From Gammaproteobacteria bacterium (GTDB lineage Bacteria; Pseudomonadota; Gammaproteobacteria; Steroidobacterales; Steroidobacteraceae): DNA of 64,000 nt. Position numbers and translations under genes: made by a program. Below, one piece after another: positions 31,834 through 34,697 of the stretch (position 1 is the first letter of the stretch; every line of letters starts with the position of its first letter). Under the pieces are notes generated by a model. The model did not search any database and was not told where the DNA came from. It saw only the letters and a list, made by a program, of their open reading frames with translations. The DNA is taken from positions 1-64,000 of the forward strand of contig SCUD01000015.1 in assembly GCA_004297335.1 (NCBI GenBank), read 5' to 3'.

Positions 31834-31991
31834 CCATTCGCGGACAGCCTGGCCGGTCAGCGCAAGATCGACTGCCGGCGGCCCTCCAAGCGCCGACCGG
31901 GCCTTCGAGCAAGGTCGGATGTGAAATATAACTAACTGATTATTAAGGATTAAAGCCAAACCGGGAAAAATATTTTCGATAGGGCTTGCAT

Positions 31992-32019
31992 TTGATGCGG
32001 TGTTGTAGTTAACTACAAC
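31992..32019 (+). promoter_or_regulatory. candidate promoter of the GntR-ABC operon
   Basis: TTGATG (31992-31997), a 16-base spacer and TACAAC (32014-32019) form a plausible sigma-70 core; TTGCAT at 31986 is an alternative -35. The preceding ~70 bases are unusually A/T-rich (ATATAACTAACTGATTATTA) and may act as an UP element. The inverted repeat 31999-32022 covers the spacer and -10. Confidence 0.5.
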
Positions 32020-32022
32020 ACC
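31999..32022. promoter_or_regulatory. perfect 24-bp inverted repeat, probable GntR/YtrA operator
   Basis: Arms GGTGTTGTAGTT and AACTACAACACC are exact reverse complements with no spacer. It lies in the promoter of an operon that encodes a YtrA-type GntR repressor, whose family binds GTGT...ACAC inverted repeats over its own promoter. Placement over the -10 predicts repression by blocking RNA polymerase. Confidence 0.8.
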
Positions 32023-32093
32023 ATAGAAGCACATCAGTTCACCGGTGATCGAGCCTGGCTCTGGTCACCACCGCAGCGAAAAAGGAGTCACAC

Positions 32094-32453
32094 ATGAACG
32101 CGAAGATCGAATCAGGTGCCCGGAAGGCCATCGGCGGACTGACGGCGGCCGCCATCGTGTCCTTCAGCCTCCTGGTCCTGGACCAGGGCTACATCGCCGC
32201 CGCGCCGCGCGGCGTCGTCGAGATCGGTGAACTCATTCCGGTCGCGGTTCCGAGCCCGGTCGTGGCCATGCTGCCCGAAGTGACGGTCCTTGCCGGCCGG
32301 GACGAGCCCGCCTCCGGCTTCCTGGCCGCGAGCCTGCCGGAAGTGGTCGTCACAGCGAGCCGTGCCGCTTCGCAGCTGGCCGGTGTCCAGGCGGCTGGCG
32401 GCCAGCCGCGGCCGCAGGGACTGCTGCCGCTCACCAGTGCTCTGCTAAAGTAG
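32094..32453 (+). CDS. small exported/membrane-anchored protein with LPEV repeats, operon leader
   Basis: 119 residues with a strong AAGGAG ribosome binding site six bases before ATG. A charged N-terminus (MNAKIESGARK) precedes a hydrophobic segment (AIVSFSLLVLDQGYIAAA), a signal anchor or signal peptide. The mature part carries two related motifs, MLPEVTVLAGR and LPEVVVTASR, about 30 residues apart, and ends RPQGLLPLTSALLK. The EVVVTASR string resembles the TonB-box region of TonB-dependent receptors, but no receptor follows. It is the first gene behind the YtrA operator, 33 bases before the regulator. Function unknown. Confidence 0.7.
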   Translation: MNAKIESGARKAIGGLTAAAIVSFSLLVLDQGYIAAAPRGVVEIGELIPVAVPSPVVAMLPEVTVLAGRDEPASGFLAASLPEVVVTASRAASQLAGVQAAGGQPRPQGLLPLTSALLK

Positions 32454-32486: not shown

Positions 32487-32915
32487 ATGGATACCCAGTG
32501 GACCGATAGCCTGCCGATCTATCGCCAGCTGCGCGATCGCGTAGTGGCCATGATTCTGGAGGGCGTACTCAACGACGGTGATCCGCTGCCGTCGGTCCGC
32601 GCCGTGGCCGCCGACTACCGGCTCAATCCTCTGACCGTGCTGAAAGGCTACCAGCAGCTGGTGGATGAGCAGCTCGTCGAAAAGCGCCGCGGCCGCGGCA
32701 TGTTCGTCACTGCAGGCGCCCGTCGCGCGCTGATGAAGGACGAGCGCCAGCGCTTTCTCGAGCTGGAATGGCCGAAGATCGCCGCACGCATCCAGAGCCT
32801 GGGTTTCGCGCCGGCCGAGCTGCTCGCAGCGCTCGACCGCCTGCCGCCGGCGACGGCCTCGACGCTGACACCGGGCCGGGACGCGGATGCGGATCCGGGA
32901 GCGCGGCATGAGTGA
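32487..32915 (+). CDS. GntR-family (YtrA subfamily) transcriptional regulator
   Basis: 142 residues. The winged-helix domain is at the N-terminus (SLPIYRQLRDRVVAMILEG, DPLPSVRAVAADYRLNPLTVLKGYQQL, LVEKRRGRGMFV). Only ~60 helical residues follow, too short for a ligand-binding FadR/HutC domain and typical of the YtrA subfamily, which represses adjacent ABC transporter genes. Its end overlaps the ATP-binding gene by eight bases. Autoregulation through the inverted repeat at 31999 is inferred. Confidence 0.93.
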   Translation: MDTQWTDSLPIYRQLRDRVVAMILEGVLNDGDPLPSVRAVAADYRLNPLTVLKGYQQLVDEQLVEKRRGRGMFVTAGARRALMKDERQRFLELEWPKIAARIQSLGFAPAELLAALDRLPPATASTLTPGRDADADPGARHE

Positions 32916-33765
32916 GCTGGTTGTCGCCCGGGACCTCAGCAAGAGCTATGGCGCGACGCGAGCGCTCGACCAGGTGTCCTTCCGGATCGGCGCCGGCCGC
33001 ATCGTCGGCCTGATCGGGCCAAACGGCGCCGGCAAGACCACCGCGCTGAAGGCCCTGCTCGGGCTCACCCGCTTCGACGGCGAGCTGGCCGTCCTTGGCC
33101 TGGACCCCTGGCGCCAGCGCCACCGCCTGATGCAGGACGTCTGCTTCATCGCCGACGTCGCCGTGCTGCCGCGCTGGATCCGCGTGCGCCAGTTGATCGA
33201 TTTCGTGGCCGGCACGCACCCGCGCTTTCGCCGCGAGATCTGCCTGCAGTTCCTGGCGCGTACCGACGTGAAGCCCGGCAGCCGGATCCGCGAGTTGTCG
33301 AAGGGCATGGTGACCCAGGTACACCTGGCGCTGGTGATGGCGATCGATGCCCGGTTGCTGGTGCTCGACGAGCCCACGCTCGGCCTCGACATCCTGATGC
33401 GCAAGTACTTTTACGACACGCTGCTCAACGAGTATTTCGACCAGCAGCGCACGATCCTGGTCACGACTCATCAGGTCGAGGAGGTCGAGCACATCCTGAC
33501 CGACCTGCTGTTCATCGATCACGGGCGCATCGTGCTGGACGCCTCGATGGACGCCGTGCAGCAGGAGTACGCGCAGGTCGCAGTGAGACCGGAGCAGGCG
33601 GCGGCGGCCCGCGCGCTCGGGCCCCTGTCTGAACGCCAGGGGCTCGGCCGCGTGCACATGCTGTTCCGCGGCGCAGCGCCGGCTGATCTCGAGCCGCTCG
33701 GCGAGGTCGGGCTGCCATCGGTAGCCGACCTGTTCGTCGCCGTGATCCAGGGGGCCCGCGCATGA
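32908..33765 (+). CDS. ABC transporter ATP-binding protein
   Basis: 285 residues from ATG 32908, inside the end of the regulator gene. Walker A is GPNGAGKTT, the signature is LSKGMVTQV (a variant of LSGGQ), Walker B is RLLVLDEPTLGLD and the switch His is in LVTTHQVEEVE. Such single-ATPase proteins in YtrA operons pair with a membrane permease to export or sense peptides and antibiotics. The downstream permease starts within its stop (ATGA). Confidence 0.95.
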   Translation: MSELVVARDLSKSYGATRALDQVSFRIGAGRIVGLIGPNGAGKTTALKALLGLTRFDGELAVLGLDPWRQRHRLMQDVCFIADVAVLPRWIRVRQLIDFVAGTHPRFRREICLQFLARTDVKPGSRIRELSKGMVTQVHLALVMAIDARLLVLDEPTLGLDILMRKYFYDTLLNEYFDQQRTILVTTHQVEEVEHILTDLLFIDHGRIVLDASMDAVQQEYAQVAVRPEQAAAARALGPLSERQGLGRVHMLFRGAAPADLEPLGEVGLPSVADLFVAVIQGARA

Positions 33766-34697
33766 ACCACTGTCTCTGGCTCATCCGCCGCGAGTTCTGG
33801 GAGAACCGGGCGATCTGGATCACCCCACTGGTCGTACTCGGAGCGCTGCTGCTGCTGTTGCTCGGCGGCAAGGTCCAGTTTGGACCGATTGGCGGCATGG
33901 ACAATGGCACGCCTCTTGGGGCAATACCAGCCGACCAACAGCAACAACTGCTGCTGCTGGTGTACGCAGGCATCTCGCTGATGATGTTCCTGGTGATGGG
34001 TGTCGTGGCGTTCTTCTACGCGCTCGATTCGCTGTATTCGGACCGCCGCGATCGCAGCGTGTTGTTCTGGAAGTCGCTGCCGCTGTCCGACGCTGACACC
34101 GTGTTCGCCAAGTTCGCGGTCGGCGCCGGCGTGATTCCGCTAGTCTCCTTCGCCGGTGCGGTGCTGGCACAGCTGCTGGTGGCAGCCGGCGGGTCGATCC
34201 GCCTGGCCCTGGCTGGCGGATCCGCCGGCATCCTGTGGCAGCCGGGCGTGCTCGGCAGCGCAACCGGACTCGGGCTGTTGTGGACCATCACCGCGATGCT
34301 CTGGTATGCGCCGGTCGTCGCCTACCTGATGCTGGCCTCGGCCTGGGCGCGCCGCGGCCCGTTCCTGTGGGCCGTGTTGCCACCGTTGGCGGTCGCGATC
34401 CTCGAACGTGTGCTGCTGCGCAGCGAGCATGCCGGTGACTTCGTTTCCAGCCGGATCTTCGGCCTGTACCGGCTGCTCGGCAATCGCGACGAGGACGTTT
34501 CGGTCACGGTGAATGGTGACGACGTCATCGTCAACGGCGAGGAAGTCCGGGCCGGCGTCGCCCGGCTCACGGACATGGATCCGCTCGGAGCCCTGCTGGA
34601 CTTCTATACCTCGCCCAGCCTCTGGCTCGGCGTCGTGGCGGCTGGCCTGATGCTGGGCGCCGCGATCTGGCTGCGCCGCTACCGGGATACTGACTGA
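33762..34697 (+). CDS. ABC transporter permease
   Basis: 311 residues, about six hydrophobic segments: WITPLVVLGALLLLLLGG, LMMFLVMGVVAFFYALDSL, ITAMLWYAPVVAYLMLASAW and the terminal LWLGVVAAGLMLGAAIWL. The YSDRRDRSVLFWKSLPLSD segment is the cytosolic coupling loop typical of ABC-2-type permeases. A soluble insertion (~residues 240-280, with VTVNGDDVIVNGEEV) lies before the last TM. It completes the transporter with the ATPase upstream; the substrate is not evident. Confidence 0.9.
   Translation: MNHCLWLIRREFWENRAIWITPLVVLGALLLLLLGGKVQFGPIGGMDNGTPLGAIPADQQQQLLLLVYAGISLMMFLVMGVVAFFYALDSLYSDRRDRSVLFWKSLPLSDADTVFAKFAVGAGVIPLVSFAGAVLAQLLVAAGGSIRLALAGGSAGILWQPGVLGSATGLGLLWTITAMLWYAPVVAYLMLASAWARRGPFLWAVLPPLAVAILERVLLRSEHAGDFVSSRIFGLYRLLGNRDEDVSVTVNGDDVIVNGEEVRAGVARLTDMDPLGALLDFYTSPSLWLGVVAAGLMLGAAIWLRRYRDTD

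Follow-up and report, generated by a model that had tools for sequence, protein, structure and literature searches.

The 24 bp palindrome GGTGTTGTAGTTAACTACAACACC at positions 31999–32022 of the window (the whole 64,000 nt stretch of DNA that was analysed) is very probably the operator of a YtrA-type GntR repressor encoded in the adjacent operon. The predicted binding and repression would make the regulator control its own gene together with those for a small membrane protein (ORF1), an ABC ATPase and an ABC permease. The main reason for judging the palindrome to be real is that, of 80 named loci, 78 have a matching site no more than 1 kb upstream of the orthologous regulator gene. As the encoded regulator is of the YtrA type and the site co-occurs with it, the operator proposed in a preliminary description of this DNA is upheld by the sequence comparisons.

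Palindrome, promoter and operon

The arms of the palindrome, GGTGTTGTAGTT (31999–32010) and AACTACAACACC (32011–32022), are complementary at 12 of 12 positions with a spacer of 0, as described previously. No other perfect palindrome in the window is as long, the runner-up having an arm of 9. A perfect arm of 12 was found in two of 60 first-order Markov windows of matched composition, and as this chance level is ~3% per window, the symmetry by itself is not decisive. The spacer-free, full symmetry that had been emphasised is a property of this copy but not a requirement of the site, since orthologous sites retain between 7 and 12 of the 12 pairs. The layout can be written as GGTG TTGTAGTTAACTACAA CACC, or GGTG-N16-CACC.

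A predicted -35 hexamer, TTGCAT (31986–31991, forward strand), lies 17 bp from a predicted, weak -10 hexamer, TTAACT (32009–32014, forward strand), thus placing the centre of the palindrome inside the -10, which the arms had been said to cover, though TTAACT matches the consensus at only 3 of 6 positions. A consensus promoter scanner called no sigma-70 promoter here, and the promoter call therefore rests on conserved spacing in relatives, in which a TTGCAT/TTGACA-like box is found at an equal distance across the family. In Woeseiaceae, the -35 is ~5 bp farther upstream, indicating that the promoter shifts while the operator sequence stays.

Four tightly packed genes follow the palindrome on the same strand, and a divergent malate dehydrogenase-like gene is located upstream of them. 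The GntR-ABC operon of the preliminary description is present, but gntR is its second gene. The gene next to the operator is ORF1 (32094–32453, forward strand; 119 aa), a small membrane protein gene preceded by an AGGAG Shine-Dalgarno sequence (32083–32087), followed by the gntR gene (32487–32915, forward strand; 142 aa product). The ABC ATPase gene (32908–33765, forward strand; Pfam ABC_tran, E-value 2.3e-18) shares its first 8 nt with the end of gntR, and the gene for the ABC-2-type permease (33762–34697, forward strand), assigned from its sequence and a match to Pfam ABC2_membrane_5 (E-value 8.2e-05) that is below the curated cut-off, shares an ATGA overlap with the ATPase gene.

Members of the YtrA subfamily have a winged helix-turn-helix domain, a short C-terminus of two helices and an ABC operon, and their motifs are long with GT and AC distant from the centre (PMC4494728). 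The regulator matches Pfam GntR over residues 12–74 (E-value 6.9e-13), a region modelled by AlphaFold as H-H-H-E-E, and two further helices are predicted at residues 78–104 and 109–117 (pLDDT ~70–80 there; 74 overall), with a disordered tail from residue 124. Among solved structures, those closest to it include 3TQN and 2DU9/2EK5, which are small GntR proteins, and a protein named YtrA (6SBS); 3TQN and 2DU9 are the best PDB matches. As the overlapping ABC ATPase and permease genes come after gntR, and GTG and CAC are conserved at the two ends of a 24 bp site, the domain, predicted fold, operon and long operator agree in identifying the protein as a YtrA-type regulator, the family named in the preliminary description. 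The Staphylococcus aureus PmtR/PmtA pair likewise consists of a small GntR regulator and an ABC exporter, and its NCBIfam models are among the nearest for the regulator and the ATPase. However, the scores of 46.5 bits for PmtR (NF047563; curated cut-off 200) and 122 bits for PmtA (cut-off 350) are far too low, hence the two proteins are not members of these families.

Conservation of the site and co-occurrence with the regulator

The 80 named loci come from the nearest relatives, which are Steroidobacteraceae and unclassified gammaproteobacterial metagenome-assembled genomes (MAGs), and also from Woeseiaceae, Acidobacteriaceae and others. Their sites score 15–24 of 24, compared with a best of 12–16 of 24 in shuffled upstream sequence, and in the two exceptions (L093 and L094) the regulator is kept while no recognisable site was found within 1 kb. 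Within the family, the regulator is preceded by the site in 29 of 30 loci, and the remaining locus is on a truncated contig. Absence of the repeat upstream of orthologous operons had been named in advance as a result that would speak against an operator, and the repeat was instead found to be conserved there. On both arms, the GTG/CAC ends and the TA steps at positions 8–9 and 16–17 show little or no variation, and the first, seventh and central positions are variable. Conservation of the -10 alone would favour one side, whereas both arms are conserved.

The distribution of the site was also compared with that of the regulator in 60 genomes of the family, with the counts combined by hand. Sites were found in 38 of 41 genomes with an orthologue and in none of 19 without (Fisher p = 7.5e-13), where an orthologue is defined by an E-value of ≤1e-40, a threshold chosen after seeing the data; if the partial or divergent hits in G028 and G050 are counted as orthologues, the figures become 38 of 43 and none of 17. 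A reversed control pattern gave one match in the 60 genomes. Across a class-wide sample the site is rare (6 of 115 genomes), and both strong hits outside the family (L207 and L208) precede a related regulator gene, which in L208, a distant genome of the same class, has GGTG-N16-CACC upstream. These data provide a well-supported operator and a position matrix for a YtrA-type regulator in Steroidobacteraceae and several distant uncultured lineages.

No further copy with up to 3 mismatches was found in the present genome (3.96 Mb, 97.6% complete), and a search of it with a sequence model also revealed no extra copies. A looser pattern, GGTGTTGT-N8-ACAACACC, matched 8 further places in this genome at 3 mismatches, versus one for a control, but these places were rejected as chance matches because the invariant TA steps are not kept on both sides. 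A possible decayed site before the tolC gene of this genome (L178, 1447–1470) was likewise rejected, as it is a weak, AT-rich, imperfect palindrome that scores 13 of 24, the level of shuffled sequence.

Relation to known YtrA systems and predicted mechanism

The YtrA motif of Xanthomonas citri is GGTG-N16-CACC (Zhou et al. 2017, as reported in PMC6746942), and in that report its outer half-sites and 16 bp spacing are identical to those of the palindrome examined here, which is thus a site of an already known kind. The likeness concerns the motifs of two YtrA-type GntR proteins, and the title of Zhou et al. 2017 refers to a regulon whereas the present genome has a single site. Bacillus subtilis YtrA is an autorepressor of the same type, and ytrGABCDEF includes a gene for a small transmembrane protein, ytrG, beside the ABC genes (PMC12772383), but its inverted repeats are 13 bp apart (PMC4730234), the ABC set is larger and there is a second target, ywoBCD. 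HpaR1 of Xanthomonas campestris is also a YtrA-subfamily autorepressor, but at its gumB site the repeats are linked by 1 bp and it acts by activation (PMC4730234). YtrASa of Sulfolobus acidocaldarius shares the YtrA fold (6SBS) and autorepression but has a compact 14 bp core motif and a shorter helix, compared with 24 bp here.

In the predicted mechanism, a dimer of the regulator would place one recognition helix in each outer GTG/CAC half-site, approximately two helical turns apart. In a YtrA-type protein from Corynebacterium glutamicum the recognition helices are 62 Å, or about two turns, apart (PMC6746942), a separation compatible with half-sites whose centres are 20 bp apart. The bound dimer would cover the -10 and block RNA polymerase, so that the unit from ORF1 to the permease gene, including the regulator's own gene, may be repressed until release by what is probably envelope stress or a membrane-active compound. 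Inhibitors of the lipid II cycle induce the B. subtilis ytr operon (PMC12772383), which makes a signal from the envelope a plausible guess here, though both the signal and the transported substrate are inferred. As the same subfamily includes HpaR1, which can activate as well, conservation does not separate repression from activation.

Palindromes near a -10 are generally known to be bound by many protein families, and this one could be the site of a different regulator of the operon, with the YtrA-type protein acting elsewhere. This is very improbable, as the half-sites and spacing equal the X. citri YtrA motif, none of the 19 family genomes that lack an orthologue carries a site, and the site accompanies the regulator also in MAGs of Acidobacteriaceae and Woeseiaceae.

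The likelihood that the palindrome acts as RNA, in a terminator hairpin or a leader structure, is negligible: a perfect inverted repeat could make a stem, but there is no T-run on either side, a terminator scan reported none, no Rfam family was found at the palindrome, and the repeat is part of the promoter, with the predicted transcript starting at it or downstream of it. Moreover, the half-sites are conserved in sequence and not in pairing alone. A chance occurrence in a promoter, which the simulated arms of 12 would allow, is scarcely credible for a repeat whose placement relative to the promoter is shared by different families and phyla and whose occurrence follows that of the regulator. 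An operator of the YtrA-type regulator is thus the preferred explanation.

Second sites in relatives and the first gene of the operon

The half-site had been suggested as a means of finding a regulon elsewhere in the genome; no further copy was found in the present genome, but second sites at export and other genes were identified in relatives (L146–L165 and L202–L205). Of 6 relatives in the same genus, 5 carry a second site next to an adaptor gene. The present genome has neither a second site nor a close copy of the RND adaptor of these relatives (best identity 33%), hence autoregulation of the ABC operon is probably all that remains, and the regulator probably has no other target here.

Twenty second sites from other genomes, a hand-picked and non-random set, were assigned to the nearest suitably oriented gene using Pfam, and the assignments are putative as a palindrome reads the same in both directions. 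Eight sites precede a gene for an HlyD/RND-type adaptor, four a gene for a TolC-type outer membrane protein and two an ABC ATPase gene. The gene downstream of the L157 site was judged by eye to be adaptor-like, and the remainder encode Yip1 (L159, and L160 by similarity), a carbonic anhydrase, an FMN dehydrogenase and a DUF4097 protein. In L202–L205, the adaptor genes are followed by those for AcrB-type pumps. This arrangement predicts that RND/TolC export genes are further targets of this regulator in related genera, with ABC transporter, RND adaptor and pump, and TolC forming a concrete candidate envelope-export regulon.

ORF1, the first gene of the operon, encodes a protein with one strong N-terminal hydrophobic segment and no match in Pfam or NCBIfam. 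Comparison of its codons in eight relatives revealed 687 synonymous and 524 non-synonymous single changes, identifying it as a real gene under purifying selection in these relatives. Both ORF1 and B. subtilis ytrG encode small membrane proteins of the operon, a likeness by description.

Two 10-mers in the ORF1 product, LPEVTVLAGR (aa 60–69) and LPEVVVTASR (aa 81–90), are similar to the TonB boxes found in this genome's own TonB-dependent receptors. On a matrix built from 30 of the 64 receptors, LPEVVVTASR scores 20.7 (shuffle p below 0.005), and the 85 long ORFs of the window score at most 10.8; the boxes themselves average 28.4 and go down to 14.1, values that are optimistic as the matrix was made from those same boxes. 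A further 16 first-gene proteins have a TonB-box score above 6 (p ≤ 0.015). A literature search on small proteins bearing TonB boxes found nothing relevant. It is conceivable, but rather unlikely, that the ORF1 product is membrane-anchored or exported and displays TonB boxes in the periplasm, in which case derepression would yield the ABC exporter (and RND/TolC pumps in relatives) along with a TonB-binding decoy or adaptor. If true, this would couple TonB-dependent import to envelope export.

The 64 TonB-dependent receptor plug domains found in this genome are many for a genome of 4 Mb. The first-gene position (loci L014–L033 and L074–L116) is occupied by unrelated small membrane or secreted proteins that vary by lineage, among them a WFGQPEPAVLVD type that is often duplicated, a Woeseia type and a 180 aa type in Acidobacteriaceae. 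The analysis highlights a small membrane protein that varies between lineages, is usually encoded by the first gene and, in this clade, matches no known Pfam or NCBIfam family and carries TonB-box-like repeats.
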